DNA from: Harmothoe impar
Lineage: Eukaryota > Annelida > Polychaeta > Phyllodocida > Polynoidae
Assembly (NCBI GenBank): GCA_947462335.1
Contig: OX381705.1
Span: 44,654,175-44,718,174 of the forward strand
Length of the DNA stretch: 64,000 nt
Reading direction: 5' to 3'
Both the position numbers and the translations under genes were made by a program. Below the pieces are notes generated by a model. The model was not told the DNA's origin. It was given only the letters and a program-made list of their open reading frames with translations, and ran no database searches. Of the stretch, positions 22,217 to 56,240 are shown piece after piece; position 1 is the first letter of the stretch, and the number at the start of each line of letters is the position of its first letter.

Positions 22217-22217
22217 T

Positions 22218-22229
22218 TGGTGCCGTGAC
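22218..22229 (+). promoter_or_regulatory. Primer-binding site, tRNA-His type
   Basis: TGGTGCCGTGAC starts two bases after the LTR end. It complements the CCA end plus the 3' acceptor stem of an animal tRNA-His, which ends GTCACGGCA. The match covers about 12 bases. The tRNA identity rests on general knowledge of that tRNA. Confidence 0.75.
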
Positions 22230-22278
22230 CACTTGATCGAACCGACCATTGATAGGGTATTAAATAGACTTACAGTAT

Positions 22279-25112: not shown

Positions 25113-25405
25113 GCCAAAAAAAAAAAATAGTCGTGTTCAGGTAACATGGCCCAAAAAAAATAGGGTAGGTAGGTCGATTTTTTTTTTTTTTTTACCTTTT
25201 TTTTTTGAGGATTTTGAGGCAGATTTCCTCCCATTTTCGTAAAATTTTTCGTGAAAAAAATATTTCAGGAAAAAAATGTATTTTTTGGTAGAAAAAACAC
25301 AAAAATGCCTTCGAAAAAAAAAAAAAAAAAAAAAAAAATTTGGGTAGGGCCAAAAAAATAGGGTCGCTAGGGATACCTGAACACAACTTTTTTTTTTTTT
25401 TGGCC
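25112..25405. mobile_element. MITE (PIF/Harbinger-like) inserted in pol
   Basis: The 294-bp element has GGCC-starting inverted termini with an A run followed by GTGTTCAGGTA, and is flanked by a 3-bp TTA duplication (25109-25111, 25406-25408). TTA duplications and G-rich ends fit PIF/Harbinger. The body is mostly A/T runs with no ORF. Element plus duplication add 297 nt, a multiple of three, but the insert itself contains stops, so Pol is broken. Confidence 0.88.
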
Positions 25406-25408
25406 TTA

Positions 25409-32375: not shown

Positions 32376-32922
32376 TGTAACGGGTTGACTATAAAGTCTA
32401 ACTGTTATTGTTGTATATCTATTGTATGTTGTATGATGTAAGACAACACGGTTCTATTGTGTTTAATAACTGTTTTATTCATCTAACTAGTGTCGTCGGT
32501 TCGTTACATACACCGACTCCTCTAGTTCGGTTATCTATACGGTAGTGTACCGGCACCACCTTCGGTTACCGTCGGTAGTTGTTACATAAGCATTTTACAT
32601 AACTAAACCTAACAGGTGGCGCTGCTAGTACGGTCACGTGGCTATGCAGCGCTGTATATAAGACGGCTACTTCTCCATTGGAAGTCAGTCAGGTTTGGGA
32701 CTGTCGTGACATGACCACCCTGTGCTCACGGGCTTAACTCTATGCTATAGGGTTGCCCCACTGTATTATATATCTGTTCTGATCTTGTATATCCGCTGGT
32801 TATACTTGTACTATAATACACAAGAGTTACCTTTACAATAAAGTCGCCGTATATTAAAGTCTAATTTACCTTGTCTGGTTTTTGTACTCAAGTGTTACAT
32901 ACGTAGTAAGAGACCAACTACA
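32376..32922 (+). repeat. 3' LTR (547 bp)
   Basis: Same length and ends as the 5' LTR. It is followed directly by ATAG, the target duplication. It carries the same TATA box, AATAAA and ACCGTCGGT (32568-32576). Confidence 0.95.
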
Positions 32923-33579: not shown

Positions 33580-33583
33580 CTAT

Positions 33584-33679
33584 GGCTGTGTCTCATGACC
33601 TTGGGCCAATGTTTTTGTCTCTGACCGGGTGCCGTCTCTGACCGGCTGCCGTCTCTGACCGGCTGCCGTCTCTGACCGG
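33584..33679 (+). repeat. Left terminal inverted repeat, 96 bp
   Basis: Identical by eye to the reverse complement of 54941-55036. The inner two-thirds consists of four GTCTCTGACCGG units spaced about 17 bp apart, which look like transposase binding sites. Confidence 0.97.
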
Positions 33680-35340
33680 CAGTGAGTAAAAGTAGTTTTT
33701 TTTTAATTTTTTTTATTTTTTAATATTGTGATATATATACAGATTTGTTTAAAAATTATGCTGGTTGTTATATAATTGTAATTACCCTGATGGAGTTGTT
33801 AGAAGAAAAGTGTAGTCCGAAAGTGATGTCTCTGACCGGCAACAACAAAAGGGCCAAATATGGTTAGCAAAATTCAATCTGGGGTTCCGGAAAAAATAAG
33901 GCTGCTCTGTGAAGGGGGGACACATGTCAATGTTTAGACAACATTCCTTAAATGTAAAAATGTAATTATCCCCAGTGTTGGAAATTCTGTGAAATGTAAC
34001 ATATTATGATGTTTTGAAATAGGGAATTTAGATTTCAATTTTAAACGAGCGGCTGTTAATTCTTTCATCTAATCCTGAATAGGTAAAGTGTCGTGGTGCC
34101 TAAAGTAAGTATGTAAGGTATTAAAGTCATGAAATTGCTATTATTTGCTCCCTTACACACCGATGAATATACTCGTGCTGCCGGTCAGAGACATCACCTG
34201 AATCCCTAATGAATGCTGAAGCGGTCAGAGACATCACAGCCATATATGTAAATGCACGGAAACATATGTATTCGTTTAAGTGTGTGCTTATTCATTAAAT
34301 ATGACTGATACTTCCCATTGCTTTAATATGAAACTGATTTTACTTTTTTTTTTATGCGTGTTGTTTCACTGTAATAAAATGTATAGAAAAAAACCTAGTT
34401 TCCTCCTTTTGTTGTTTTTTAAATTGCATAATTATTTATGGCAACCAAAAAAATTGCTAACATTACTATATTGACATAGATCCTTTCCAATAGTATCCAA
34501 GTGAGTGTAGAATTAATACTGGGATAAAAAAAAATATATAGATACCTTTTAAAGGGTTTTACTTGAATTAGTAGCAAACGGTCAGAGACATCACATTTCA
34601 TTTATATCCTCATGCCGGTCAGAGACGTGACACAGGTATATGTAAATGAAGGGAAACCTATCTATTCGTTGAACTATCTTGTTAAAAAAAAAATCTAAGT
34701 GAATAATGGTATTGCGTTAATATAATACCGTATTAGAAGTTCCTTAAATACGTGTGGTTTAAGTATAAAAAAATAAGTGTGTAATACCCTTTTTTTACTT
34801 TTCTTCTTTTTTAATTGGTATGATTAAAAAAAAATATATATTTTACTATATAAGAACTAATGTTCACATAGATCTTTGCGCATAGTATGCAAGTGTCAGC
34901 ATAATTAAAAAATTAATTATTTGAAAATTTCTAGATACTTTTTATAAATTTTTACTGAATAGCAATAAACGGTCAGAGACTTCATTTTTCCTTAAGCCCT
35001 GTTGCCGGTCATAGACTTCCACAATTATTGGTAAAAATTCACAAATGAGACATCCAGTATGTTTTATGCACAGATACTTTAATTTCCTGGAAAGAAGACA
35101 CATTTCAACAAAAACATGTTCTCAAACTTGCTTTTCAATCCAAATGTGGTTCACGCTGCGGCTTCCTTAGCGAGCACCCACCTCCCACCAAGTGGGTGAA
35201 AAGCACACTAGCATGACCCCTGCGTCAGAGTGTCCTATATAAGGGGGCGTGGTCACCTTCACTATACTAAATACAAATATAACCGGCAAAGCTGTTATAT
35301 ACACAGCATATACTTTTAAACCGCTCATTGTAGAGATATT
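33680..35340. other. Left subterminal region of the giant transposon
   Basis: AT-rich non-coding DNA with single GGTCAGAGAC or inverse motifs at about 33,831, 34,180, 34,220, 34,580, 34,616 and 34,970. No ORF is convincing. Confidence 0.7.
35221..35250 (+). promoter_or_regulatory. TATA-box-like site pointing inward from the left end
   Basis: TATATAA at 35236-35242 lies in CCTATATAAGGGGGCGTGG, a good core-promoter context. It would drive plus-strand RNA through the 155-bp array and antisense to the transposase. No coding sequence follows, so if active it would yield a non-coding or antisense RNA. Confidence 0.4.
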
Positions 35341-36400
35341 TAAAGGCTCACAGACGCTTCTGCAATTCCTCTGTAATAATTAAAGTTGTGTTTCAATCTA
35401 TAAACGCTCAGAGACGGTTCTCCATTTTTTTACAAATCATTAACGCTGTGTATGTATGTGACGGCCTCACATATATAAAGGGTCAGAGACGCTTCTGCAT
35501 TTCTTCTCTTAATAATGAAACGTGTGTTTCAAACTATAAACGGTCAGAGACGGTTCTTCATAACAAATAATCATGCAGCGTCTGTTTCAATGTGCGCCCC
35601 ATGTGTATGTATGTGACGGCATCACATATATCAAGGGTCAGACACGCTTCTGCATTTCTTCTCTTAATAATGAAACGTGTGTTTCAATCTATAAACGGTC
35701 AGAGACGGTTCTCCATAACAAATAATCATGCACCGTCTGTTTCAATGTGCGCCCCATGTGTATGTATGTGACGGCATCACATATATAAAGGGTCAGAGAC
35801 GCTTCTGCATTTCTTCTCTTAATAATGAAACGTGTCTTTCAATCTATAAACGGTCAGAGACGGTTCTCCATGACAAATAATCATGCACCGTCTGTTTCAA
35901 TGTGTGCCCCATGTGTATGTATGTGACGGCATCACATATATCAAGGGTCAGACACGCTTTTGCATTTCTTCTCTTAGTAATGAAATGTGTCTTTCAATCT
36001 ATAAACGGTCAGAGACGGTTCTCCATAACAAATAATCATGCACCGTCTGTTTCAATGTGTGCCCCATGTGTATGTATGTGACGGCATCACATATATCAAG
36101 GGTCAGACACGCTTTTGCATTTATTCTCTCAATAATGAAACGTGTCTTTCAATCTATAAACGGTCAGAGACGGTTCTCCATTTAACAAATAATCGTTCAC
36201 CGTCTGTTTCCATGTCGCCCTAATGTCTATGTATGTGACGGCATCACATATATAAAGGGTCAGAGACACTTTTGCATTTCTTCTCTTCATAATGAAACGT
36301 CTCTTTCTATCTATGAACGGTCAGAGACGGCTCTCAAATAATCATAAACCGTCTGTTTCCATGTCGCCCCAATGACTATGTATGTGAAGGAATCACATAT
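35341..36400. repeat. 155-bp tandem array, about 6.5 copies
   Basis: The landmark GGGTCAGA(G/C)AC recurs at 35481, 35636, 35791, 35946, 36101 and 36258, a steady 155-bp period. Each unit has two GGTCAGAGAC-type motifs about 61 bp apart and the shared phrases AATGAAACGTGT and GTGACGGCATCACATATA. It lies just beyond the 3' end of the transposase gene, between it and the left terminus. Confidence 0.9.
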
Positions 36401-36603
36401 TTGAGGGGCTGCCAAATGTGAGTGGGTGCCATATGTCAACGGGATAAACAGTAAACCTTTATCTACCCCACAATAGGAGCAAAATGCCCAAATACTTAAT
36501 GCCTTAAATGCACACCCACTGAAACACCCCACCCTCTGGAAAATCACCCCCAGTGAATGACATTTCCCCAAAATCATGATATATATATATCTACACAAAA
36601 GGA

Positions 36604-39384
36604 TCATTCCTGGTTTGCAGGAGGAGATTTCTCGCGGTTGAGATGTAGACCCAATTCCTTGAATCGCTGGAGGGTCACATTGTCAGCCAATGGCCAATCG
36701 TCTCCAGAAGTGAACGCCCCGTCTTCAAGCAACTCGTTGACGAAATTACCCTTCCTCCTCTCCCTAGCTATCCGGTCGTCACAAGCCTTATCCCTCGCAT
36801 TTGGAACCGACAGACAGCTCTCCTCTTCATCCTCATCGCTCTCGCTGTCATATGATATTCCTGAAGTGGAAGGGAGATTCACTTGCTCCTGTGAAGATGT
36901 TGGTATTTCATTTTGTGAAACTATTTTGGCCGCGTCACGTTCTCGCTGTTTCCTGAGTGCAAACCTCGTAGTCATTTGGCTGAGACGTTCCCTTTTGATG
37001 GTGGTGCGGTGAGTGTTATGTACAGTGTCCAACTGTTCGTTTGCATCACTCGAAAACGGTTCCTCCCCACTTCCTGCGTCGTCACACCCCACCACCTGCT
37101 CGATGTGTGATGGTCCTTCCCCGCTGTCACTCTCCTCTTCTGCATCATCTCCTGATGGAATTTGGGGCCTTTCAGGTTTGTCTGTAGCAGCAGGGGGCTT
37201 CTTCTTCTTCTTCTTGGGAGCAGTAGGTTCATGTCTTGGGCACAGGATCCACTCCGGGCACATCGGTCTCAGATCGTCCCTGAAGCAGCATGACCTGTAA
37301 CAAGAGGTCTCCCGCAAATAGAGCTCGTCCTTGTACACAGTGGCGTGGTGGGCTGAAAGGATACCATGCACATCCCCACTTTTCCATTTGGAAATCTCCT
37401 CCTCATTTGCAGCGATGACCTCCTTCTCCCCTTTGAGCAGAGTCAGCTTGACTGTTTGTGGTTGGAGCACTTCGATGAACTCGTCGACCGTTTGTATGGC
37501 ACCACAGGACTTCACAGATCTATCCGCCATACCTTTAATGGCCCCCCCAATCCCATCACATGGCCCCTTCCCATGGCCCGCCTCCAGCCAGTTCCAGCTG
37601 ATGCGTATGCCGAAGATGGCAGCGGCCCTACGCATCATTTCACAGGCGAAGCGATTCCTATATTGGGATGATGGAGAGTCCGTGACAAGATGGAGGTGTT
37701 CAACGGAAGGGAGTATTTGACGGATTTTAACAATGAGAAGAGAGAGGAAAGAAAAAGTGGTTGGGAACTTGTGGTTTCTCACACTACTAACTCCAACGTA
37801 GTTGAAGTTAGTCAGTTTCACCTTAGGGTCTTCGGGTTGGGGGTCAGAAGGTAGGTTTTCAGGAAGTCGGGTATACAGCACCATTGGATGGAGTGTAAGC
37901 TGGTCTTTCCCGAAAAACGCTGACTGGATCTCGGCAAGGAAGGAGGTGCACCAATTCTCGGCGTAATCCATTTGGCACACAACATGGTTTTCTGGGAGGT
38001 TTTCTTTTAGATCTTTAATTGCAGAATATTGAGCTTCGACACGTGCCTGATGTTCCCTAAAAGTCTTTAAATCTATTTTGAATTTGGTAATGAAGTCCTT
38101 CTTGCTGATACACTGCTTCGACAGAATGGTGTGAAATACGGGCCGGGGCTTTTTGTTTGCGGACGTTGCGTACCACCTCTTCTCCTTGTCCCACATCTTG
38201 AACTTGACCATATCTTCCGGGAGTTTGTCAAGGGCAGAGTCTATTTCTTGGTCGGACAAAAGTACCAGCTCAGAGGTGCGGTTTGGCAAGCCGTCCACAG
38301 CCTCGAGCATCATCCCCATGTTGGCGTGTGGTTTGCAGAGGCAGACCGACCGTTTAAGGAAGACCGAAGTCTTCACGGTGCGCTTGTCCCTTGCTTTGCA
38401 GAAGGTAGCAAAGGACAGCGCCAAGCCCGTCTCCACGACGAACTTGCGGTGTAGGTTACGCATGCAGTCGACTAGCGCAACGATGGGGACGCCCAGATCT
38501 TTCCGGTAGTACTTTTTATCCGGCAGGGTGTAGCTGTTATCACTCCGTCTCAGGAACTCGTCGACAGCACGGCGCTTATAGTCAGCCATGCGTCGACGAG
38601 AGCCCTCCTCCTTTGGTGGTTTCTTGTTGGGGAACACTGCTTTACGGGAAAGATGTATAGCTTTCGCTATTGCTGCCTTTTGAGCGTATCTTACTCGCGC
38701 TGCACCCACCCGCTCGCTGAACATGTCCTTCTTCGCTTCTAAAGAAGAATACTTTATTTGATTGACTATTTCAAACAGATGTATTGCCTTCTTCACTTGT
38801 TCTTCAGGTTCAGGGGCACCAACATCTTCCAGGAACTCCAAAGTCTGCGCAAATAGTGCATCATTAAGAGCTTCTTTGTCAGGTCTACCACATGCACCTT
38901 CTCCATCACCTAAGTTACCGTCTTGGGTTTCCGATTCATCATTTGTGTTTTCATAAAGTGGGGATGCTTTTGAACTGGAAGATTTCTCCTCGTCGGAGGA
39001 ACCCCTAAGGGGGTGCTCAACCCAAACGGGACACACATCACAGATGTCATTTGACATCTGATTCGAGTTGGTACTGTCAGTATCACCGTTGTGATCAGCG
39101 TTTTCCACCCACGAAGGACATCCTGTGGAATGATGCGATATGTCATTGGAGTGGCTACTCTCTGTATCACTGTCGTGTTGGGGGTTTTCTACCCATGAAG
39201 GACATCGTGCGCAATGATGGGATGTGTCATTGGAGTGGCTACTCTCTGTGTCATAGTCGTGTTCCGCATGTTCTACCCACGTAGGACATCCACTGGAATT
39301 ATCGTCACACGGCAACGTCTCACATTCTGATAGTAAAAAATCGTGTATGGCATTCTCTACCCACACAGGGCATGGTGTTTGGTG

Positions 39385-39418
<34 letters not shown>

Positions 39419-39651
39419 CTCTGATAAATTTCCGTAGGACCAAAACTCATATAGGGATTCTCAACCCATGCAGGGCAAAGGTCTAAACTCGGTAATTGTA
39501 GTGGATCTTCAACTTTGTTGTTACTTTCGGAAGAATCGCGACAATCTATCTTCTCTAAATCAATTTGGTGTTCGGGGTTCTCCACCCACTCTGGACAGAG
39601 GCTTTCCGTAGAGTGTGTCATGTGCTGGGAACTACTGTTCACGTTAGCCAT
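36604..39651 (-). CDS. DDE-like transposase domain ORF, downstream of the UGA
   Basis: From ATG 39651 this gives about 1,015 residues; the frame is open back to the UGA at 39673-39675. The N-terminal 215 residues hold seven CP-x-WVE(N/H) motifs in acidic Ser/Asp linkers, including a run of 11 Asp. The core (about 540-710) has MDYAEN (D565), LTLHP, VTDSPSSQYRN (D661) and WLEAGHGKGPCDGIGG (E693, D702), numbered from a TTG three codons upstream. That is an RNase H-fold pattern; which of E693 or D702 is the third acid is unclear. An eighth motif, CPEWILCPRH (801-810), follows the core, then a basic run and an acidic C-terminus. I have met HGKGxxDGxGG in uncharacterised animal proteins but know no named superfamily for it. 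Confidence 0.85.
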
Positions 39652-39669
39652 TTTTCCCAATCCTTCATA

Positions 39670-39675
39670 CCGTCA
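39670..39675 (-). promoter_or_regulatory. Candidate stop-codon readthrough site, UGA-CGG
   Basis: The stop TGA (39675-39673) is followed by CGG, then three sense codons and TTG/ATG of the transposase in the same frame. UGA followed by CGG or CUA is the established type II leaky context of several RNA viruses. From the exon start at 44,545 to 36,604 this is the only stop in about 2,647 codons. Alternatives are a recent nonsense mutation or re-initiation at ATG 39651. Confidence 0.6.
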
Positions 39676-42600
39676 CGCCCTTTCAAACACAGACTCTTCC
39701 GAAGAGGTTACGTCCTCCTCATTTTCATAAACAAATACCGTGTACTTTACAGCACTGTTGTCATCTGTATTTGGGGATTCACCCTGAGTTGCTTCTTCAA
39801 CCCTAACGGGCACTTGAGGGAGTAACGCTTCTTCTGGGCTGCTACCATCCACCTCCAACGACTCCGTCGTGATCTTGCCCGATACTTCCGGTGACTCCAA
39901 CCCATCAGTATTGTCTGCTACTTGGCTAGACGTCTCCATCTTGTTGGTGTTGCCACTCTCAGGGTCTGTTCCTTCTACAATGGTAATTGACACTTGAGGG
40001 AGTAACACTTCTTCTGGGCTGCTAGCATCCACCTCCAACGACTCCGTCGGGATCTGTGCCAATACTTCCGGTGACTCCAACCCACCACTATTGCCTGCTT
40101 GTTGGCTAGACGTCTCCATCTTGTTGGTGTTGGGGCTCTCAGGGTCTGTTCCTTCTTCAACCCTACCCGCCACTTGAGGCAGTAACCTTTCTTGTGCCCT
40201 GCTACCATCCACCTCCAACGACTCCGTTGGGATCTGTGCCGATACTTCTGGTGACTCCAACCCATCACTTTTGTCTGCTACTTGGCTAGACGTCTCCATC
40301 TTGTCGGTGTTGCCAGTCTCAGGGTCTGTTCCTTCTTCAACGCTATCCCCCACTTCACCCAGTAACCTTTCTTCTGCGCTGCTACCATCCACCAACGACT
40401 CCGTCGGGATGTGTGCCAATACTTCCGTTGACTGCAAGCCATCACTATTGACTGGTTGTTGGCTAGATGTGTCCATCTTGTTGGTGTTGGGGCTCTCAGG
40501 GTCTGTTGCTTCTTCAACGCTACCCGCCACTTCAGCCAGTAACCCTTCTTCTGGCCTGCTACCATCATCCTGCAACGACTCCGTTGGGATCTGTGCCGAT
40601 ACTTCCGGTGACTCCAACCCATCACTTTTGTCTGCTACTTGGCTAGACGTCTCCATCTTGTCGGTCTTGCCAGTGTCAGGGTCTGTTCCTTCTTCAACGC
40701 TATCCCCCACTTCACCCAGTAACCTTTCTTCTGCGCTGCTACCATCCACCAACGACTCCGTTGGGATGTGTGCCAATACTTCCGTTGACTGCAACCCATC
40801 ACTATTGCGTGGTTGTTGGCTAGATGTGTCCATCTTGTTGGTGTTGGCCCTCTCAGGGTCTGTTGCTTCTTCAAAGCTACCCGCCACTTGAGCCAGTAAC
40901 CCTTCTTCTGGCCTGCTACCATCATCCTCCAACGACTCCGTTGGGATCTGTGCCGATACTTCCGGTGACTCCAACCCATCACTATTGTCTGCTACTTGGC
41001 TACACGTCTCCATCTTGTCGGTGTTGCCTGTCTCAGGGTCTGTTCCTTCTTCAACGCTATCCCGCACTTCACCCAGTAACCTTTCTTCTGGGCTGCTAGC
41101 ATCCACCTCCAACGACTCCGTCGGGATCTGTGGCGATACTTCCGGTGACTGCAACCCATCACTATTGTCTGCTACTTGGCTACACGTCTCCATCTTGTTG
41201 GTGTTGGCGCTCTCGGGGTCTGTTGCTTCTTCAACGCTATCCCCCACTTCAGCCAGTAACTTTATTTCTGGGCTGCTAGCATCCACCTCCAACGACTCCG
41301 TCAGCATCTGTGCCGATACTTGCGGTGACTCCAACCCATCACTATTGTCTGCTACTTGGCTAGACGTCTCCATCTTGTCGGTCTTGCCTGTCTCAGGGTC
41401 TGTTGCTTCTTCAACGCTATCCCCCACTTCACCCAGTAACCTTTTTTCTGGGCTGCTAGCATCCACCTGCAACGACTCCGTCGGGATCTGTGGAGATACT
41501 TCCGGTGACTGCAACCCATCACTATTGTCTGCTACTTGGCTACACGTCTCCATCTTGTTGGTGTTGGCGCTCTCGGGGTCTGTTGCTTCTTCAACGCTAT
41601 CCCCCACTTCAGCCAGTAACTTTATTTCTGCGCTGCTAGCATCCACCTCCAACGACTCCGTCAGCATCTGTGCCGATACTTGCGGTGACTCCAACCCATC
41701 ACTATTGTCTGCTACTTGGCTAGACGTCTCCATCTTGTCGGTGTTGCCTGTCTCAGGGTCTGTTCCTTCTTCAACGCTATCCCCCACTTCACCCAGTAAC
41801 CTTTTTTCTGGGCTGCTAGCATCCACCTCCAACGACTCCGTCGGGATCTGTGGCGATACTTCCGGTGACTGCAACCCATCACTATTGTCTGCTACTTGGC
41901 TACACGTCTCCATCTTGTTGGTGTTGGCGCTCTCGGGGTCTGTTGCTTCTTCAACCCTATCCCCCACTTCAGCCAGTAACTTTATTTCTGCCCTGCTAGC
42001 ATCCACCTCCAATGACTCCGTCGGGATCTGTGCCAATACTTCCGGTGACTCCAGCCCATCAGTATTGTCTGCTACTTGGCTAGACGTCTCCATGTTGTTG
42101 GTGTTGCCACTCTCGAGGTCTGTTCCTTCTTCAACGCTATCCCCCACTTGAGCCAGTACCCTTTCTTCTGCGCTGCTACCATCCACCTCCAACGACTCTG
42201 TCTTCATCACCCCACAATTATTCTCTTGTACTTGTGTCCCTGTGTGAAGCTCATCCTGCTGTGAAGACTGGGAAGCACATTGGCTGGTCTCTGTTGACTC
42301 ACTTTCATTACTGGAAGAAGATGGGCTGCATGATAGATTAAAATTGAATTCTTGCACCTCCTCCTCCTCTGAAGAGGTACCACTGTAGGGGGAAACGGTG
42401 ATTTCCAAATCACTGTTTGCTTGTAAGGGGTTCTGCATAGTAAGAGATGCTGTATCCATATCATCATGTAATACATTTGGCAGGTTATCCATTTGTACAG
42501 GTGAAGTGGATATTCCATCTTGTGGATCTGTACAATATTCAACAAATTGTGCCGTATACTCTTCAATGCTGAAGAATTCTTCATGATCTGTACGCCCTTC

Positions 42601-45600
42601 AACAAGAACGGGGTCTGTTGCTTCTTGAACGTGAACGGCCACTTGAGGCTGTAACCCTTCTTCTGCCGTAGTCGCATCGAGGTTCGAGGACTCTGTGGGG
42701 ACGTCCATCTCGTTGGTGTTGGCTGTGTCAGCGTCTCTTGCTTCTTGAACGTCAACGGCCACTTGAGGCTGTAACGCTTCTTCGGCGGTAGTGGCATCGA
42801 GGTTCGAGGACTCTGTGGGGATGTCCATGTGGTTGGTGTTGGCTGTGTCAGCGTGTCTTGCTTCTTGAACGTCAACGGCCACTTGAGGCTGTAACGCTTC
42901 TTCGGCGGTAGTGGCATCGAGGTTCGAGGACTCTGTGGGGATGTCCATGTGGTTGGTGTTGGCTGTGTCAGCGTGTCTTGCTTCTTGAACGTCAACGGCC
43001 ACTTGAGGCTGTAACCCTTCTTCTGCCGTAGTCGCATCGAGGTTCGAGGACTCTGTGGGGACGTCCATCTCGTTGGTGTTGGCTGTGTCAGCGTGTCTTG
43101 CTTCTTGAACGTCAACGGCCACTTGAGGCTGTAACCCTTCTTCTGCCGTAGTCGCATCGAGGTTCGAGGACTCTGTGGGGATGTCCATGTGGTTGGTGTT
43201 GGCTGTGTCAGCGTGTCTTGCTTCTTGAACGTCAACGGCCACTTGAGGCTGTAACGCTTCTTCGGCGGTAGTGGCATCGAGGTTCGAGGACTCTGTGGGG
43301 ATGTCCATGTGGTTGGTGTTGGCTGTGTCAGCGTGTGTTGCTTCTTGAACGTCAACGGCCACTTGAGGCTGTAACCCTTCTTCTGCCGTAGTCGCATCGA
43401 GGTTCGAGGACTCTGTGGGGACGTCCATCTCGTTGGTGTTGGCTGTGTCAGCGTGTCTTGCTTCTTGAACGTCAACGGCCACTTGAGGCTGTAACCCTTC
43501 TTCTGCCGTAGTCGCATCGAGGTTCGAGGACTCTGTGGGGACGTCCATCTCGTTGGTGTTGGCTGTGTCAGCGTCTCTTTCTTCTTGAACGTCAACGGCC
43601 ACTTGAGGCTGTAACCCTTCTTCTGCCGTAGTCGCATCGAGGTTGGAGGACTCTGTGGGGATGTCCATGTCGTTGGTGTTACCTGTGTCAGCTTGTTTGC
43701 CTTCTTCATGTTCAGTATGGTCATGCCACATGCGCCATAACCTTTTAATTTGTTGGGGGTCATCTGTGTACTGGTTTACCTCTTTCAAAACCTCCCTGGA
43801 GGAAGGCACATCTTGATTTGGTTCTATCTTGATGGATTGTGTCAGATCAATGACAGGCCTCAAGTCCGAAGAATCACTTTCTACTGGTGAACCATAGCTA
43901 ACGTTACCCATGTCACTGTCCTCATCTGTTTCCATGTCGTTGGTGTTGGCTGTGTCAAGCCGTCTTGCTTCTTGAACGTCAACGGCCACTTGAGGCTGTA
44001 AGGCTTCTTCTTTGGTAGTCGCATCGAGGTTGAAGGACTCTGTGGGGATGTCCATGTCGTTGGTGTTGGCTGTGTCAACGTCTCTTGCTTCTTGAACGTA
44101 AACACCCACTTGAGGCTGTAACACTTCTTTGGCGGTAGTGGCATTGAGGTTGGAGGACTCTGTGGGGATGTCCATGTCATTGGTGTTACCTGTGTCAGCT
44201 TGTTTGCCTTCTTCATGTTCAGTATGGTCATGCCACATGCGCCATAACCTTTTAATTTGTTGGGGGTCATCTGTGTACTGGTTAACCTCTTTCAAAACCT
44301 CCCTGGAGGAAGGCACATCTTGATTTGGTTCTATCTTGATGGATTGTGTCAGATCAATGACAGGCCTGAAGTCCGAAGAATCACTTTCTACAGGTGAACC
44401 ATAACTAACGTTACCCATGTCACTGTCTTCATCTGCTTCCAAGTCAGCTGATGAAGCTGGTGTAGTGGTACATTGGACCTTCTGACCATGTTTCTGAAGT
44501 CTGTGTTCCATTATCAATTTACCCAGCTTCAAGCGTAGAGGCGGACTGTAAATTGTTTAAAAGTAATGGGGAAAAAAAATTTACAATTTAAAATAATATT
44601 AAAATTCATGTCGAACAATATTAGCTTAAGCTTTTTTAATAATTTTCATTCTTTGCAGAGTGATAGCTGTAGACTGTAAATGTGAAGAAATTATAACAGA
44701 ATTTCAGATGGTAATTACATGTTCAAATATTGCGTTAATTTCAAGGGCTAAGTAGGTTTATCCTCCACCCTAGTCAATACAAACAGAAGATATTATTGGT
44801 GCAGTGTCATATAAATGGTGATTTGCAAATGATTTAGTGAATCAATACAGTAACACTGGTATGAGGGATGAAATAAATGATTTATTACCCGTTTATTATT
44901 GCCTTTTTTAGATAATATGACCAACAATAAATGATTTCCATTCCAACCAAACAATGTACCTTTGGGAAAGCCTTTCATGCAATTAAAAGTTAACTCACAT
45001 TCATAGAAAGATAAATTCTTGATCATGTTACACGGCACTAAACATAACCAATTAGTTTGTATTCATTAAAACGCAGTTTACCTACATACAAAAAGTTTAC
45101 GCATGTACATGCCATCACCACGGTATAAATTACAGTTCCACCACAAAAACGGGATGGGTAATCTTTGTAAACATCATTGTAGATTCATCACATGATACTA
45201 TTGATGATTACCTCAATAACAGCTGCAACACTTTATAATCAAACCGGTTATAAATCACATGCTGTTTTTGTATATACTGGACAAACTGGGAGCTGTAGTA
45301 CTGCCTAATTGAGAGTTCTTGTATTTACCTGACACTAGTACACCACTTACAAATATTTATTCCGCTTTATGTGCTTATCAATCAAAATATATCAACATGT
45401 CAAACGGTCACACCTCACAACCCCAAAGTTATGTCTCTGACCGGCAATAAAAAATCAATTAAATTCACCTTCAAACCGAGGAGAGGACCTCAATAAATCG
45501 TTGGATTCTTGTTTAGACAATATAGAACAGAAACTTATCATTACCAAACATTTCTTATGTGGTCATGAAGGGAAATATGAGAAAGTGTTAAGTGGTCAGA

Positions 45601-48600
45601 GACATGACAACGCTAATGTGATGTCTCTGACCGGCCATCACCCTTTCCTTCTATTTACCTTAAAAAGTAATTGGGGACCTAAATAAGTCAATGGAAATTT
45701 CCTTTAAACCAATATAGACGATACACATAAACATTACCCACGACTTCTTATGTTTTTATCAACGTAAATATGAGAAAGTCTTAACCGGTCAGAGACATGA
45801 AAACGCCAATGTCATGTCTCTGACCGGCGATCCCCCATGCTTTTTATTTACATTACAAATTTGGTAAGCACCTTCATAACTAAATTGAAATTCCTTTCAA
45901 CCAATATACACAATAAACATAAACATTACCCATTACTTCTTGTTTTTATCAACCAAAATATGATAAATTGTTAACCGGTCAGAGACATCAGAACCCCAGT
46001 GTTATGTGTCTCACCGGCCATGGCACATGCGTTCTCTTTACCTTAAAAACTAGTTAAGGGCCTTAATAAATAAATCGGATTTCCTTTAAAACAATAAACA
46101 CGATACACATAAACATTAAGCAAGACTTGTTATGTTTTCATGCACGAAAATATGATAAATTATTACGCGGTCAGAGACATTAGAAAGCCAATGTGATGTC
46201 TCTCACCGTCCATGGCACATGTGTTCTCTTTACCTTCCAAACTAGTTAAGCACCTTCATAGATACATGGATTTCCATTTAAAAGAATATACACCATACAC
46301 ATAAATATTAACCACAACTTGTTATGTTTTTATCAACCAAAACATGATCAATTGTTAACCGGTCAGAGACATGAGAACGCCAATGTGATGTCTCTGACCG
46401 GCCATGGCACATGCCTTCTCTTTACCTTAACAACTAGTTAAGCACCTTCATAAATATATGGATTTTCGTTTAAAAGAATATACACCATACACATAAACAT
46501 TACCCACGACTTGTTCTGTTTTTATGCACCTAAATATGAGAAATTCTTAAGCGGTCAGAGACATCACAATGGCAATGTGATGTCTCTGACCGGCCATGGC
46601 ACATGCCTTCTCTTTACCTTAACAACTAGTTAACCACCTTCATAAATATATGGATTTTCGTTTAATAGAATATACACCATACACATAAACATTACCCACG
46701 ACTTGTTCTGTTTTTATGCACCTAAATATGAGAAATTCTTAAGCGGTCAGAGACATCACAATGGCAATGTGATGTCTCTGACCGGCCATGGCACATGCCT
46801 TCTCTTTACCTTAACAACTAGTTAAGCACCTTCATAAATATATGGATTTTCGTTTAAAAGAATATACACCATACACATAAACATTACCCACGACTTGTTC
46901 TGTTTTTATGCACCTAAATATGAGAAATTCTTAAGCGGTCAGAGACATCACAATGGCAATGTGATGTCTCTGACCGGCCATGGCACATGCCTTCTCTTTA
47001 CCTTAACAACTAGTTAAGCACCTTCATAAATATATGGATTTTCGTTTAAAAGAATATACACCATACACATAAACATTACCCACGACTTGTTCTGTTTTTA
47101 TGCACCTAAATATGATAAATTCTTAACCAGTCAGAGACATCACAATGGCAATGTGATGTGTCTCACCGGCCATGGCACATGCCTTCTATTTACCTTAAAA
47201 ACTAGTTAAGGAGCTAAATAAATACATGGAATTTCCTTTAAAACAACTTACACGATACAGATAAACATTACCCACAACTTGTTATGTATTTATCAAGCTA
47301 AACATGATCAATTGTGAAACGGTCAGAGACATCAGAACGCCAATGTGATGTCTCTGACCGGCCATGGCACATGCCTTCTCTTTACGTTAAAAACTAGTTC
47401 AGTACCTCACTAAATAAATACAGTTTCCTTTAAAACAATATAGATGAGAAATTAGAGGTTATTTATGTACACTGTGATTTCTAGTGTTACTCTTTAGAAG
47501 CCACTATGTTCAGTATGTTTCAGTTTTCTTCATGATTCTCCTAATGCCACATCCGCCACAGGCGGATCACTTCATCCGGATCATGACGATACTCCGACAT
47601 GATATCATTGGACCTGGTCCTGTAATAAAATATCAAATAGGCTCATTATTAATTCCAAGTAAATACCTACATGTTGTAACCTCCAAACAACCCGCAAAAA
47701 GGGGATGGGAACATTAATAGGAAAAGTTGTGTTTCTCTCCAGGTTATTTAAAAAGTCTCCAGGCTATTGGCATCCTACTGTAAGGAAACGCTGCAACCCT
47801 GCAGCTCCCCATATATGTTATATTACAGGTTTGATTTAAGTAAAAGTGCTTTAGAGATGTAGTGAAAAATTCCCTTAAAAACGTGCCCACAAACTCTCCC
47901 TTAAAACACCCAATATCAGTACACTTAATAGTAAAATGAAGACATGCTGGGAAATTGTTTGTCATTGTTAAAACTTAAAAGTAAAACCACAAATATGTAA
48001 CCAATGAGCAGTACTCACCTACTGGACACCTCATACAGATTGCGGGACGACACAGACTCGGAGTCCGAGAACTCGTCGCTCATGAGCGGTGTGGGGGAGC
48101 GGCATCCTGCCAATAACGCAAAGTCCTCCTCAGTTAGCTCTTGCACCGGAGCAGGAGGCGTGGGCATGCGGGACAATCCTAGCGGCAGTATCACCTCCTG
48201 TTTTATTTTCTTCTTTGGAGCTGAAGAAAGAACAAACTATAGCGGTCAGAGAGGTTGTCCCTAACCAAAGTGTGTGTTTTTAATAAGTGATTTAAAATAT
48301 TCGCACTTCTTTAATGAAACACCTTCTACGGAATGCAAAATTACAGAAATTTGCCCATTTTTACCCCCAAAACCACCACAATACTATAGGTGAAAGGGGT
48401 TGGGGGTGTTCAATTTCCAGACCCTCCAGGGGTCACCCGAAAACGATTTTGAGAATGACAATGATTGCTATGTCAGCACTGTTACCAAAGTCAGTGTTTG
48501 AAAGAAGAGAATTAAAATTAAATCTTTATGGAAACCCAACTTCTATGGTATTGAAAGTTACAAGGGGCCTGGGATGTAGATTATAATAGCCGGTGATAGA

Positions 48601-51600
48601 CGTCACCTGCGGTGGAAAGTTGAGATGAACCTCGCACCACCTCGACCTCGTTTCCCGAGCCTCATTGCTGGCACCAAAGGCTGCTAGTTAAAATATTTCC
48701 TGTGCGCTAGGTGCTGTTGTATTAAAAGTGCAGATGGGTACCGCGTAGGAATCCCCCCCAATATACGGGGGAAGTGACGCGGTCATGGCCCCCTAAATAC
48801 CAGCGATGTCCCTCGGACGCGTCCAAGCGCGAGTTAGGGCCAGCTTGCTGCATGCCGTCTGGGGGATAATACGGACGTCCGGTCATTGCGCTAGTTCCCC
48901 CCCAAACCTATTTGCTGGTGTACTGTCTGTGGTCTCTGACCGGTTGCCGTCTCTGACCGGTTGGGGTCTCTGACCGGGTGCCGTCTCTGACGGGGTGTAA
49001 CAAATGATTGGAGTTGGGGCCAGCTTGAGTTGACATTTCTTAAGTCAGTAACTTTTAGTGAATTGTGTTAAACAATGTAACACTGTACTTACGTGGGGAG
49101 TCGTCGCTGTTGGATTTTGACTGTGCTCCACCTGTTTTTGTTTCTGGTTGTGAACAATTACGCGAGCTTGATCGGGTAACTTTAAAAGAAGTTAAATTGT
49201 AAAGATTAGAAGTCTGATAGTACTATTTGTTGATGGGGAGGCGTGCAACAAACAATGACCTGAATAAGAAGCTGTTAGCGCATGAGTAACGACCTTAGAT
49301 AATTTGAAATGGTTACGCTTACAAAAATCAGGATATAAATAATATCAAAGAATATGAATAGTTGTATATTACCTGTCTTTGAAGCACTTGTCACTGCGGA
49401 TGTGGACTTGCCTACACCTTTTTTGAGTCCTGGTTGTGAAGAATTAGCAGCGCTTGATCGGGTAGCTTAAAAAGAAGTAAAATTGTTAAGATTATAAATT
49501 AGATTGTACTTTTTGTTGATGTTGTGTTTTTGAATTGTTAACCTATACTCACATATATAAGCATTTGTAAAAAAGTTATGGCAGTTGTTATGTAATTATA
49601 ATTAGCCTCCTGCTCTTGGTAGAAGGTAACTCCCATAGTGATGTCCGGTCAGAGACCTCACCCGGTCAGAGACGGGACCCGATCAGAGACAAAAACATTG
49701 GCCCAATGTCGTGAGAGACAGCCTTAGATATCTTAAAATGGTTACGCTTAAAAAAAACAGGATAAAAAATGATATGAAAGAAAATCAATAGTTGTATATT
49801 ACCTGTGTTTGAAGAAGTTGGCACTACGGAAGTTGACTTGCCTCGACCTTTTTTTGGTGCTGGTTGTGAAGAATTAGCACAGCTTGATAGGGGAGCTTTA
49901 AAACAAGTTAAATTGTAAAGATTAGAGAAATATACTACTACCGGTACTTGTAGATAGGGAGGCCTCCAAGAAACAATAATATGAATAAAAAGCTGTCAGT
50001 GCATGACCTTAGTGATTACGCTTACCAAAAACAGTATATTAACAATTTAAAATAATATTAACTTAGATATTACCTGTGTTTGAACAACTTGCGACTGGGT
50101 CTGTTGAGTTGGGTTGACCTTTCTTCAGTGCTGCTTGGGAAGAATTACGCGAGCTTGATCGGGTAGCTTTAAAAGAAGTTAAATTGTAAAGATTAGAAGT
50201 CTGATAGTACTATTTGTTGATGGGGAGGCGTGCAACAAACAATGACCTGAATAAGAACCTTAGATCACTTGAAATGGTTACGATTACAAAAAGCAGGATA
50301 TAAATAATATCAAAGAATATGAATAGTTGTATATTACCTGTGTTTGAACCACTTGTCACTGCGGATGTGGACTTCCCTCCACCTTTTTTGACTCCTGGTT
50401 GTGAAGAATTAGCACAGCTTGATCGGGTAGCTTTAAAAGAAGTTAAATTGTTAAGATTATAACTTAGATAGTACTACTTGATTAGTTTTTAAATCATTTG
50501 TTACACCCAGTCAGAGACGGCACCCGGTCAGAGACGGCAACCGGTCAGAGACCACAGACGGTACACCAGCAAATATGTTTGGGGGGAACAAGCGCAATGA
50601 CAGGACGTCCGTATTATCCCCCAGACGGCGTGCAGCAAGCTGGCCGCAACTTGCGCTTGGACGCGTGGGAGGGACATCGCTGGTATTTAGGAGCCCATGA
50701 CCGCATCACTTCCCCCGTATATTGGGGGGGATTTGCACGCGGTACCCATCTGCACTTTTAATGGAACAGCACCAAGCGCACAGGAACTACTTTGAGCAGC
50801 AACATTTGGTGCCAGCGATGACGCTCGGGAAACGAGGTGGAAATGGTGGGAGCTTGGGCGTGCAGGTGCCCTTTTCCAGCCACTCCAACCCTGGTGAGAT
50901 ACGTCTCTGACCGGCCCCAAAATGTACATAGTATATTTGTACGAAGGGGGCGGGGGGATTTTACTTTTACAAAAGTTTCTACAAACAGTACTATAATACA
51001 TAATGGAATGGCGTATAAAGCAGACCTTATATAGTTTTGTTTCTACCTATATACCCCATCTTATGAAACGGTCAGAGACGTCACTACTGCTGTAGGCTAT
51101 CGGAGACAAAAACATTGGGTGGAGGTCGTGAGACACAGCCTAGATATTGTTGGATCTAATAGGCCAAAAATAAGTACCTGCTGTAGATGGTGCCGACTTC
51201 CGTGGAGCGATCTTGGGGGGGTTGGGTTTATCGGGTACCGATGATTTTGATGGAGCTGTAAGAAAGTTAATAATATTAAGTGACACTTTATAACAGTTGA
51301 GGCAGTTACATATATATAGCGGTCATAGACGTTAGCCATTGAGAATTGGGAGGCTACCAAAAAATGTTTTTTTGTGACAGCTCGTCAGACAAGGCACCCA
51401 GTCAGAGAGGGCACCGGGTCAGAGACAAAAAGATTGGGCCAACTTCGTGAGACACAGCCTACAGCCAGGATAGTTAAAAAAAAAAAACTAGTTATTTTTT
51501 GAAGGTAGAAAGAGCAGTTCTAATGTGTGGTGTCTGTGACGTATTACATGGGGCTTAAAGGAATACCGTAAAACCTGTATGATAAGCCAACCTTTTTAAC

Positions 51601-52442
51601 CTCCTTCATTATTGCCAGATGTACCTTACGCATGCTTTCCCCACAAGCCATTATTGCATCAGTATATTATGTTGCATCTAAATTAGCACCTAAATAGCCA
51701 CAAAATAAATACCTCTGCGATTGGCCGTGTTGGGCCTGAAGTGGGGGCTGCGTTTGTCGACCGGTGCTTCTGGGTGGGGGGGCACATAGTCGTCATCGCT
51801 GTCATGTTGTAGCGGTGGGCCCCGTTTTCTCCCCCGCCTCTTGGTGTCGGGCAGGTCTGGCAAGGTGATGTGGCGTGAAGCACTACCACTGTCAGCGGGG
51901 GTGGAGCTCTCAGCACGCTGGGATCGTCGCCGTCGTGGTGGTTGCTGGCTGGTGTTGGCTTGTTCAGCCTGTCGCTTGCGTGCTAACACCTTAACACTCC
52001 TGTCGGTCTCATACTTGCTACTCCCTACCGCCCCTCGATTTTTCTGGAGAAATAGGGTAACATTTAGATTTGAATATTTGTATGTGTATAATATGTATTG
52101 ATGTCACTGACTGTAAAAAAGATAATGGATGAATGGGTCCATAACTTAGTAATATAGTTTTATTAAAGAAAATCAACATTTTACAATTTGTATTTTAATT
52201 TTACGTAAATTTACCTTCTTGTTTGCAGCTAAGGCCTTACGTCCCTTTTCCGTTTTCATTTTGCGGGCTGTACTATTGCGGGAATTCTTGTTATGCCTTA
52301 CTGCCTGATACAAGGCCTGGTCGCTTGGGGACAAGAACTTCCGATATTCCTTGTACAGTGCGAGCCATTCCTCAATATCCGGGATAGGCGATTTGTCGGG
52401 TGGCACTTGGATGGGGTTCGTTGGAAAGGGGAAATTCACCAT
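39673..52442 (-). CDS. Nine-exon transposon gene, N-terminal product of 2,056 aa
   Basis: Coding exons on the minus strand: 52442-52215, 52043-51713, 51255-51178, 50430-50338, 50166-50074, 49895-49803, 49465-49373, 49179-49093, 48220-48019, 44545-39673 (the last continues in frame beyond the stop). Every junction is GT-AG and phases agree, giving 6,168 coding nt before the UGA. Exon 1 starts MVNFPFPTNP; an acceptor at 52468-52470 implies a leader exon upstream. Exon 2 is basic (PRRRRSQRAES, KRRGRKRG). The 202-bp exon has PKKKIKQE, a nuclear signal with a sumoylation-type site. The long exon has VIDLT and IKIE motifs, then 40-residue and 60-residue repeats. I recognise no enzyme domain. It probably binds DNA or chromatin and supplies the N-terminus of a larger readthrough protein. 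Confidence 0.85.
39781..42190 (-). repeat. Coding 180-bp minisatellite, about 13 copies
   Basis: A 60-residue unit with ESLEVD, EVGDSVEE, DPE, NKMETSSQVAD and GLESPEV repeats in frame. Occasional 3-bp deletions keep the frame. Between about 41,040 and 42,100 a 360-bp double unit repeats three times almost unchanged, a higher-order structure that points to recent unequal exchange. Long ORFs on the opposite strand and other frames here are by-products of the period being a multiple of three. Confidence 0.95.
42601..43680 (-). repeat. Coding 120-bp minisatellite, nine copies
   Basis: A 40-residue unit (ADTANTNEMDVPTESSN, LDATTAEEGLQPQVAV) repeats nine times with period exactly 120 bp and very few differences. 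Two more diverged units lie in the N-terminal part at about 43,940-44,190. The other-frame ORF of 518 codons over this array is an artefact. Confidence 0.95.
43681..44445 (-). repeat. Frame-preserving duplication of the SIM/SUMO segment, 507-bp offset
   Basis: The block at 43681-43937 is repeated at 44188-44444 with few changes. The offset of 507 bp is 169 codons. Each copy encodes DSDMGNVSYGSPVESDSSD, VIDLTQSIKIEPNQ and LWRMWHDHTEHEEG. Confidence 0.92.
44546..48018 (-). other. Intron carrying the hairpin array
   Basis: This 3.47-kb intron of the transposon gene is bounded by GTGAGT at 48,018 and a good acceptor (TTTTAAACAATTTACAG) ending at 44,546. Outside the array at 45.4-47.4 kb it is plain AT-rich DNA with no gene. 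Confidence 0.8.
45420..47420. repeat. Array of 10 hairpin units, period about 190 bp
   Basis: Each unit centres on an inverted repeat: GGTCAGAGACATCA, a short spacer, then TGATGTCTCTGACCGG. Hairpins start near 45594, 45787, 45975, 46169, 46363, 46553, 46745, 46936, 47127 and 47320. Four consecutive units (about 46,430-47,110) are nearly identical at 191-192 bp. Some stems carry mismatches (for example TGTGTCTCACCGG at about 46,003 and 47,155). Confidence 0.93.
48631..49010. repeat. Inverted repeat arm, left, about 380 bp
   Basis: This arm matches the reverse complement of 50,494-50,858 at high identity by eye, from the GTCTCTGACCGG cluster through CCGTCTGGGGGATAATACGG to CTCGTTTCCCGAG. It lies in the intron between exons 49093-49179 and 48019-48220. 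Confidence 0.9.
49093..50430 (-). repeat. Tandemly duplicated exon array, five exons
   Basis: Exons 50338-50430, 50074-50166, 49803-49895 and 49373-49465 are each 93 bp; 49093-49179 is an 87-bp variant. All are phase 1-1, so any number can be skipped or duplicated without frame loss. Each starts ATRSS-like after an acceptor TTTTAAAG and encodes a Ser/Thr/Lys-rich peptide with NSSQP and KKG words. Adjoining intron parts are also duplicated. Confidence 0.92.
50494..50858. repeat. Inverted repeat arm, right
   Basis: Partner of the arm at 48,631-49,010. The two arms bracket the five duplicated exons. A weaker relative of the CCGCCAGACGGCGTGCAG part is at about 54,170-54,190. Confidence 0.9.
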
Positions 52443-52470
52443 GTTGAACTGCAGAATAGTGGTAGATCTG

Positions 52471-54940
52471 CAAAAAGTGAAAGGCTATGTAAGTTACATT
52501 ACATAAAAAATAATTTTTGGAAAGAAATATACAGTACATAGGGGGGGAGGGGAGACTGGGTGGATAGGATTAGCTGTCGGGAGCCATATTTTAAGGATAA
52601 CGCCACACGGAAAAAAGAAAGTTTTACGTAATTGGTTTTCTGAAAGTAGGTTATTAAATTTTTATTTTTTTTAATAATTTTTTTGTGTGGGGGGGGGGGG
52701 GGGGAAATTGTGTAATTTTGTTAAAACCCAAATTCCGTGCCACCCGATCCGAGAAAAGGGGACCTAAGGGCAGACAAAAAAGAAAATTTGCTCAATGGAT
52801 TTCACCCACCATATTTTTTACCTGGGAAATTTGTTGATTTTTGGAAAAAAAAAAATAGTATAGATTTAGGTTGGCTCATTTTGTTAAACATTGAGAAATT
52901 TTTGTTTTTTAAAAATGTTCTTGCAGTTGTTGGCCCAGATCAAGCAATCAACTTTTATGTCCACTAAGAATTTTGTTGGAGGCTGTTTAAAAAAAAAAAA
53001 TTGTCCCTCGCTCCAGTTTAGAAAATCCATTGACTAAATTAAATAAAAAAAAAAAAAAAATTTTGGTGGGTCGCACAATTTTTTGAAAACTGAAATCCAT
53101 TGACCATTTTTTTTTTTTTGGTGTGGCCTAACGCCGTTGTATTTTTATAATTTGGATTACAGATCCGGCTACGATTTTTTTTTTTGTTTTTTACCTGTCC
53201 CTTCCGAGATTTTATTCCTGAATTTTCATAAAAAAAAAAATTACTTGTTGACCACTAAAATGTAGAATAAGGCGTATCAGATTGCGGATATTATTCAAAA
53301 TTTCTTGCTTAGGGCACAACAATTTTTTGACCCCCCCCCCCCCAAGATAGGTGTAAATTTTTTATCCGCCCCCCCCCTCAGGGGGGTACAAATAATTCCC
53401 CCCCCCCTGTTGTTAAAAAATGACCACTCCGTAATACTTTGTGTACATAACACTGACACATGGGTGCCGGTCAAAGACTTTACATTGGACCCGGGTTATT
53501 TATTTAGAGAAATATAGATATTTAAAACCATCAATTTCCACAGTTTGTATAAACGGCGCACGTGTATTGATGAATGATATATACCACCATGAATTTTTTT
53601 TGGGGGGGGGGGGCGGGGGAACATATTCAAAAGTATTTTCTAACCGTGCCAAAATAGTTATTTTACTAGAGAACCACAAATTACCAAATAATAGGGTTGC
53701 CTCTGTCTACATTTAGTGGATTCTGTGTAACAATCAAAATTAACAAATTGTGAGATATCTTAAGGTGGGGGCGGGGGGGGGGGGGCTGGGGGTAAAGCGT
53801 GACTCCGGTCAGAGACGTGAAAACCTTTGTATGTTCAACCATTGTATATCGTATCATTTAGGGCTGGTATGTCTCTGATCGGCAAAGTTTCGTCGCGTCA
53901 CTTTTACAGAAAAACAACAGTCCGTTGGGGGTAACGATTTTGCGTAGGTCAAATTCTGATTTTACACTATTTGAAAGGAAAATTCGGTGCGTGGCCCCTT
54001 CCTGTGCACCTTCAGTACCATATAATAAGATACTCTGATTAATAACGCATACTATTGGGGTGAAATTTGGTAAAATACCCTTGAACTCACCGTGTGCGAT
54101 GCCGGTAGGAATGGCAATTCTGGCCGAATTGGTTTCGCCGGGAACAAGCCAACAGACCGGAAGTCCGAAATATCCGCCAGACGGCGTGCAGGTAGCGTTT
54201 TCCCGCCTCGTACAGACCGGTCAGAGACGTCTCTGAGCGACCCGCACAATGCATATAGTATATCAGTGGGTAAGGGGGGGGGCTGGAAATTTTTTAAAAA
54301 TTGGATAATTAGAGTAAAACTATATACACTCCATTCATGTAGAATATGCACCTTATATGTTTATATTAATACCACAATAAATAATTTCGTTAGCCGGTCA
54401 GAGACATCACTGTTAATGTGTATAAGGGGTAGCAGGCAAAATTAGCAGACATAAATGCTTTTTTTGGGTAGAATTTTTTTGAAATTTTATATACAAGTGT
54501 TCTGGGAACAGTTCTGTTCAATAAAATACCACTTATATGATTTCATTGCGTGTCTCTACGTGATTATTATACTGCCGGTCAGAGACATAAAGTAGCTTCT
54601 TCTTTTTACTCCATTTTGGATAGGCCTATTCTAGGGGTTACTGTTTTCTTTAAGGAAATCGGTTCACATTTTAATATATGTTATATATGGACAACCTATA
54701 ATCCGTCTCATTTGCAATACTATGTACAACTGCTATACCTCCTATCTCAGTTAACCTTAATCTACCCCGTTCTACAGGGGTAAAATAGGCCTATTTTTGT
54801 TATTTTTGCACTACTAGTATACAGAATTAACTCAAAAATGAATGAAATTCCATTCCTTTATTCCATCCTTTGAAAAATATTTCCACTTCTGTACTACATT
54901 TTAATCTCCTTGTCCCCTATTTAGACGTTATTGTTGTAAA
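52471..54940. other. Right subterminal region, likely promoter side of the transposon gene
   Basis: Upstream of the first coding exon. Contains many A/T, C and G homopolymer runs (for example C runs near 53,331-53,343, G runs near 53,603 and 53,767), and GGTCAGAGAC-type motifs at about 53,808, 54,218, 54,393 and 54,574. A leader exon must lie here, but I could not place it or a TATA box with confidence. Confidence 0.5.
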
Positions 54941-55036
54941 CCGGTCAGAGACGGCAGCCGGTCAGAGACGGCAGCCGGTCAGAGACGGCACCCGGTCAGA
55001 GACAAAAACATTGGCCCAAGGTCATGAGACACAGCC
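54941..55036 (-). repeat. Right terminal inverted repeat, 96 bp
   Basis: Mirror image of the left terminal repeat with no mismatch seen. Followed by CTAT, the target duplication. Confidence 0.97.
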
Positions 55037-56240
55037 CTATAGTCGATGCTCGGCCAGCCATGGCATCAACAATAGTTGATGCTCGCCCTCAAAGGGTTAT
55101 GGCAGCTACATAGTGTGACAGAGCAATGGAATTTGTCCCATTGTCCTTGGTCTATTATAATTGACCCTGTTAAAAAGAGCACTTGAAAGTAATGAGGCAA
55201 GTGCTCTAAAAACAGGTACCTAGTTGTAACCAAGTTTTACTGTATCTATGATTATGTTGGTGCTAACTACTAAACACTTGGCCAGCTCAGAGATCATAAC
55301 TGTCAGAAGCCAGTTGTATCTTAAAATGTTGGTTGTACCTGCATGGAAGGTGGCTTCATCCTAGAGAAAAAAAGGAATAGCCACCAACACTTGATAATAA
55401 TTATTCTGAGCATGACATGAACTGCAACTGTCCAGATACCGGCCCCTATTCTTGTGGATGAGTGTCAGCTCGCCGCTCCTGCTTCCCATAATTGCTCAGC
55501 AGTGGGTAAATATTTCTGAACTGAGTGCCCACCCCAGGCCTTCAATGACAATGCATGTTAGCATGGCTACACCATGATTATGAATTACTCATGTTACACA
55601 CATTTACAGTAGCAGCATGTTAAACCAGAGAGGCTACAGAGGTCCAGCTTTTTTTAAAATTAGACATGCATGGTCAGTAAATAGCCCACCAGGTGGTATC
55701 TGGCTCTACTCTGTAATGGAGGTGCTCACACCCCCTGGTGTGAGGGGTACATCTTGGGATGGAAAGGGTGTAGATAACAATAATGAGGGAGCTGGTTTAC
55801 AAAGGGACAGTATAAGTAGACATACACACATGCGATGGGCACTTGCCTATCCTTATGGGATTCTGGTATGGATACAGTTGACAAAGAAAATTAATTAAAC
55901 TAAAATGAATCAGATACGGTTCTAAAGTGCAACCAGTAGTGAATAATATTTGGGAGATCTATCTTGCTTTTTACTTTCATCTCATTATCTTTGCCCAGTT
56001 TTAAATGACCAGAATGTCCTGTTTATAATCTCTATGCTCAGGGAACTTCATTAGGCATCAGATTAATATATTTGACACTAACTTAGCTTTGCTTTGGAGT
56101 TCTGTCGTTCCTAACTTTTTTAATTACCCAGTGGGTTATGATGGCGGTTCCCAGATGCCCTGGCCACAATCTATGTTAATTATTGTATTATAACTTACAT
56201 CTTTGACATGTAATCATCATGATAGGAGTCTGATGTAGGT
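55037..56240. other. Right flank of the giant transposon
   Basis: Begins with the target duplication and two further units of the 33-bp tandem repeat (to about 55,100). After that I see no gene, and no structure beyond AT-rich sequence. An ORF at 55,617-55,898 has no recognisable features. Confidence 0.5.

Follow-up and report, generated by a model that had tools for sequence, protein, structure and literature searches.

A recently mobile 21-kb DNA transposon in the annelid Harmothoe impar, most likely of the Sola superfamily

A 64,000-nucleotide stretch of contig OX381705.1 of the polychaete Harmothoe impar (assembly GCA_947462335.1, positions 44,654,175 to 44,718,174 of the forward strand; hereafter the window) holds two identical inverted ends more than 21 kb apart, which raises the question of what kind of mobile element they enclose. 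We are confident that positions 33584..55036 (21,453 bp, read directly in the window) represent a DNA transposon of the cut-and-paste type that is complete, moved recently, and most likely belongs to the Sola superfamily. A recently moved element of about 21 kb with a two-gene core is a natural system for asking how large cut-and-paste elements manage.

Ends, copies and target sites

The borders of the element are composed of the following features.

33580..33583, no strand: left target-site duplication CTAT, read in the window
33584..33679, plus strand: left 96-bp terminal inverted repeat (TIR), with the terminus followed by four GTCTCTGACCGG at a spacing of 17 bp
54941..55036, minus strand: right 96-bp TIR, pairing with the left end
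55037..55040, no strand: right target-site duplication CTAT, read in the window

An end-to-end comparison showed that the ends match for exactly 96 bp, index 96 being the first mismatch, and that the termini are GG..CC. The flanking repeat runs on past both borders, and the 37 bp of flank nearest the element on the left and on the right are 89% alike. The perfect ends at 33584 and 55036, the CTAT at both borders and the tandem-repeat target continuing on both sides, all reported in an earlier note on this DNA, were thus confirmed. With up to three mismatches, the 28-base terminus was matched three times in the window, compared with 0.00 times in shuffled sequences; with up to two mismatches it was found 5175 + 5084 times genome-wide (10,259), whereas the reversed-pattern control gave 0 + 0. 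These counts rule out a chance inverted repeat.

Using the left 104 bp as a query, we searched the genome, which comprises 736 contigs and 1.51 Gb, and scored 40 of 585 candidates. Seven complete end pairs were found among them, namely, the window copy and six others; the lengths of the seven are 21,453 (C2), 21,539 (C7), 21,038 (C4a), 21,038 (C4b), 20,662 (C3), 19,494 (C14), and 20,999 bp (C10). The terminal-sequence search that the earlier note had suggested therefore yielded six more full-length copies at unrelated sites, and their lengths of 19.5 to 21.5 kb bear out its description of an oversized DNA transposon. A perfect 4-bp duplication flanks six of the seven copies (CTAT, TGTA, CTCA, ATAA, ACAA in C14, and ACCT in C10), that of C3 being imperfect (TTCT/TCCT), and the TIRs are perfect across 96 bp in all copies except C10, which has one mismatch. 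The flanks of different copies showed no similarity when 400 bp on each side were compared, and segmental duplication was rejected on this ground.

Outside the tandem arrays, divergence in the 21 copy pairs was 0.02 to 1.18%. Five copies differ mutually by 0.02 to 0.21%, C10 differs from these five by 0.43 to 0.50%, and C14 from all others by approximately 1.1%. C4a and C4b, which lie approximately 101 kb apart in inverted orientation, showed three differences in 21,038 positions. Every gap of at least 15 bp between the window copy and another copy is a multiple of a 155-, 180-, 120-, or 192-bp unit, except for one 84-bp and one 965-bp gap in C14.

Empty sites were sought with a query that joined the two flanks of each of the seven copies, 120 + 120 bp, with the duplication kept only once, and 40 of 2160 candidates were scored. 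The junction of the window copy was spanned by 37 of the 40 scored places in a closed-up form with a single CTAT; 29 of these cover positions 1-241 at 88 to 95% identity (24 with exactly 241 bp), and eight cover less. The target of the window copy is therefore a dispersed repeat whose unoccupied form has one CTAT, and the empty sites are paralogous. The C10 junction was spanned by one place and the C4b junction by two, with small gaps, and no empty site for the remaining four copies was found among the 40 scored places. Single-CTAT sites of this kind were what the earlier note had proposed to look for, and together with the near-identical copies they uphold its view that the element was recently mobile. 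Since both further copies and paralogous empty sites exist, the circumstance under which that note would have given up its reading does not arise.

The transposase and its superfamily

The two long open reading frames (ORFs) lie on the minus strand.

36604..39651, minus strand: ORF2, 1015 amino acids, ATG at 39651; predicted DDD transposase with an N-terminal row of CPxWVE motifs
39673..39675, minus strand: TGA immediately preceding the ORF2 frame and in frame with ORF1, conserved in all seven copies
39673..44511, minus strand: ORF1, 1612 amino acids, ATG at 44511; acidic, with 60- and 40-amino acid tandem repeats

The ORF2 frame is open in all seven copies. Structure prediction indicates that the ORF2 product is a transposase whose core has an integrase-like fold, with a D-D-D triad; absence from the matches of this fold comparison does not exclude a family. 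Four alignments of relatives were used, comprising 30 of 103 matches (A1), 97 of the same 103 (A2), 18 proteins (A3), and 37 of 219 protein ids (A4). The triad D569, D665, and D706 is present in 31 of 31 sequences of A1 (window included) and its equivalents in 37 of 37 sequences of A4, and the second D is conserved at 90% or more in the 98 rows of A2. The relatives number in the hundreds, and their named sources are nearly all animals. A weak link to DUF7869 was found for one of 18 proteins in A3 (E 0.0046) and five of 37 in A4 (best E 0.0018), and this similarity hints at a wider DDD group. An Ulp1 protease domain is present in three of the 37 distant transposase relatives.

The N-terminus of ORF2 carries a row of CPxWVE(N/H) motifs encoded by an 84-bp tandem unit, and the 84-bp gap of C14 falls there. 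Rows of CPEWVENP are likewise found in sister-family frames and in the protein P0001. A genome search with P0001 (51 of 869 candidates scored) gave 26 places of at least 840 residues at 71 to 74% identity, of which 21 contain no stop, in addition to five places at 54 to 55%, contig C105 at 59%, and the seven giant copies at 56 to 62%. The second transposase family (G000:C2:24049374 and 25 more places) has many intact frames, and several of its loci are nearly identical. When the ORF2 core was compared with seven of 20 loci cut from the family at 73% identity, the proportion of nonsynonymous differences over 452 codons was 0.20 to 0.21, against a saturated synonymous proportion of 0.76 to 0.77, suggesting that the core is under strong constraint. 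The corresponding ratios among the seven giant copies (0.27-1.36) rest on too few differences to judge selection.

The 4-bp duplication narrows the choice of superfamily. Sola3, piggyBac, and Kolobok duplicate TTAA, and piggyBac termini are CC..GG, whereas none of the six perfect duplications here is TTAA and the termini are GG..CC. Duplications of 4 bp also disagree with Tc1/mariner (TA), Merlin (8 bp), Zator (3 bp), and Polinton (6 bp). They fall within the ranges of MuDR (4-10 bp), Harbinger/ISL2EU (0-4 bp), and IS481EU (about 4, 15, or 25 bp), but ORF2 has no Pfam match to such transposases. Ginger1 and Ginger2 share the 4-bp (or 4-5-bp) duplication; their integrase (rve-like) domain is recognizable by sequence, whereas ORF2 gave no Pfam match to such a domain at E up to 1 and resembles it in fold alone, which disfavors Ginger.

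Sola elements, as reviewed, have a DDD transposase, 4-bp duplications, and TIRs of 11 to 1124 bp, and are mostly 2 to 9 kb in size, with some above 15 kb (PMC10741241); in social amoebae, a Sola2-type transposase of 888 amino acids accompanies 4-bp AT-rich duplications (PMC3627910). As far as the quoted passages go, the DDD triad, the 4-bp duplication (perfect in six of seven copies), the 96-bp TIR, and the size of 19.5 to 21.5 kb all fit this printed profile, whereas those passages mention no such ORF1 or internal motif arrays. On the basis of these printed features, we consider membership in Sola probable.

The same features weigh against the element being the founding member of an undescribed DDD superfamily separate from Sola, a reading that we regard as possible but doubtful. 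In its favor, ORF2 has no match to a Pfam transposase model at E up to 1 and nothing meaningful in a sequence search of the PDB, and its relatives show the weak DUF7869 link alone, with names that never include "transposase." To our knowledge, Pfam holds no Sola model, so that the lack of a Pfam match is uninformative on Sola. A GHGK-type motif, which we presume to be a feature of Sola alignments, serves as a lead only. Because the predicted ORF2 protein is a DDD enzyme of integrase fold whose relatives number in the hundreds, and the element agrees with the printed Sola profile, the earlier note's assignment to an undescribed or poorly described superfamily is probably wrong.

Miniature derivatives, motif arrays, and ORF1

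Most termini in the genome belong to far smaller units. We detected 1,384 loci, each on both strands, in which two 17-base ends face each other at 331 to 361 bp (control, 0), as in miniature inverted-repeat transposable elements (MITEs). Two MITEs, of 344 and 333 bp, were read fully. Both retain the terminus and the 17-bp motif array at either end, with up to four changes in 17 at the right end of the second, and their 4-bp duplications are AAAT and ATAA. By contrast, among 40 scored candidates of 929, only the seven giants contained the whole of an internal 481-bp probe. Because these two MITEs retain little beyond their termini, the terminal region of approximately 100 bp appears to be sufficient in cis. 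The giant element is a plausible source of these MITEs, a family with more than ten thousand termini.

The MITEs also bear on whether the 21-kb unit is a nonautonomous passenger, moved along with them by the transposase of another element, with ORF2 as a relic. Sister families with open frames do exist in the genome, and the MITEs far outnumber the seven giants, those listed varying in sequence. However, ORF2 is open in every giant copy, and the six loci checked of the 20 from the 73% family carry no motif or terminus within approximately 1.5 kb of the match, a distance that did not reach the ends of that family. We consider a passenger unlikely and an element mobilized by its own ORF2 product the better account.

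Further features inside the element are as follows.

35447..36400, no strand: 155-bp tandem array of about six units with motif copies; copy number varies between the seven elements
45573..47442, no strand: 192-bp tandem array of about 10 units; unit consensus with two motif copies in inverted orientation
48628..50855, no strand: internal inverted repeat, 278-bp arms, 88% alike; inward motif arrays around candidate exons
49696..49723, minus strand: right-end-like fossil terminus, three mismatches
51113..51140 and 51432..51459: two more right-end-like internal termini, five mismatches each
52215..52467, minus strand: candidate exon of a further gene, 84 amino acids, by mechanical prediction only

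With up to one mismatch allowed, the window has 57 copies of the 12-bp motif GTCTCTGACCGG (0.10 expected), all of them within the element; eight copies lie in the two 17-bp-spaced TIR arrays and 49 are internal. Exact GTCTCTGACCG occurs 49 times in the element, and the remaining 42.5 kb of the window contain none. Conservation between the units of the 192-bp array is 96.8% in motif columns and 88.4% elsewhere, a difference equaled in three of 192 circular shifts (observed included); in the 155-bp array the values are 97.7% and 93.9%, but 17 of 155 shifts are as good and the result is weak.

The internal termini at 49723, 51140, and 51459 are all in right-end orientation without matching left ends. 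When 40 of 929 candidates were scored, the terminus around 51384-51460 was found at 33 places beyond the seven giants; most of these have a second, inverted match a few hundred bases away, and the terminus looks like what is left of a second MITE subfamily. We had considered whether the element grew by replacement of its ends, with the three internal termini as traces, and rejected this because the one traced recurs at these 33 places. The inverted repeat at 48628-50855, with its inward-facing motif arrays, resembles a small element contained within the large one. It encloses five similar 87- to 93-bp candidate exons of one phase (49093-50430, minus strand), each between splice-like sites, which are perhaps an exon-repeat gene.

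ORF1 is open in six of seven copies, and its length changes are in-frame. Residues 10-330 have no homologue in the protein database (0 of 6295 candidates), and the first 206 residues match only the seven copies and C105:6697-7065 (43% identity, E 3e-19; 92 of 92 candidates scored). The C105 match lies within a 1101-amino acid open frame approximately 3.3 kb upstream of a transposase match (1009-amino acid frame) on the same strand; this arrangement suggests that the ORF1-ORF2 order predates the giant family. VIDLT and IKIEP at the start of ORF1 resemble a SUMO-interacting motif and a sumoylation site.

The size and the several open frames might recall a virus-derived or Polinton/Teratorn-like integrated element. 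Five minus-strand frames scanned (17 frames of at least 110 amino acids listed) contain no polymerase, capsid, or protease domain, in line with the earlier note, which had seen no viral genes; moreover, the duplication is 4 bp and not 6 bp, and residues 10-330 of ORF1 lack a homologue as described above. A viral origin is thus extremely improbable, and we rejected it in favor of a cut-and-paste transposon.

The neighboring sequence holds other repeats. A long terminal repeat (LTR) retrotransposon of 11.25 kb (21667-32918), whose 546-bp LTRs have two mismatches, ends 665 bp to the left of the element; it has reverse transcriptase, RNase H, and H2C2 domains and a zinc-knuckle frame, and its third frame (806 amino acids, 29022-31439) has no Pfam match. 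Long diverged inverted repeats flank the element at 5735-6213/57268-57985, a pair with 13-bp tandem repeats, and at 20846-21158/56599-57020; they are perhaps dispersed host repeats.

Proposed mechanism and comparison with other systems

In our proposed mechanism, the ORF2 protein would bind the 12-bp motif at 17-bp steps in each end, then pair the ends, excise the element, and insert it into target DNA at positions staggered by 4 bp. The terminal ~100 bp would meet the whole cis requirement, and ORF1 and the internal motif arrays would have an accessory role, perhaps in uniting ends that are 21 kb distant from each other. More specifically, the arrays and the acidic, repetitive ORF1 could form a size-compensation device that condenses the 21 kb for end pairing; we offer this idea tentatively and think it rather unlikely. 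If true, size compensation would free an ordinary cut-and-paste transposon from the length limit that usually applies.

A parallel for the motif is Spm/En (CACTA), in which a short 12-bp motif bound by the transposase recurs many times near the ends, in direct and inverted orientation. Its termini and duplication length differ from those of the present element, in which, moreover, most motif copies are not in the ends and many of them lie kilobases from there.

In size, the element is comparable to the giant cut-and-paste elements of algae, where the cited passages describe KDZ, EnSpm/CACTA, and Sola-1 elements of about 15 to 32 kb (PMC12477816; PMC6431247), so that the range of 1 to 10 kb given as usual in the earlier note was too narrow. 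The hosts of those elements are algae, whereas the host here is an animal. In Ectocarpus, most giant families are described as having nested insertions and transposases frequently predicted to be broken, whereas ORF2 is open in seven of seven copies. KolobokP, a DNA transposon lineage in seven animal phyla, is described as having a composite-like architecture and an extra protein, but differs in its long terminal direct repeats and homing nuclease (PMC9587614). In the portions of the literature consulted, we found no description of an animal cut-and-paste transposon that reaches this size, lacks viral genes, and has internal motif arrays, which is not proof of absence. Giant cut-and-paste elements are thus already known, those met in these sources being mostly algal; distinctive here are the lack of a viral domain in the five frames scanned, the long repetitive ORF1, and the 57 motif copies, 49 of them inside the element.

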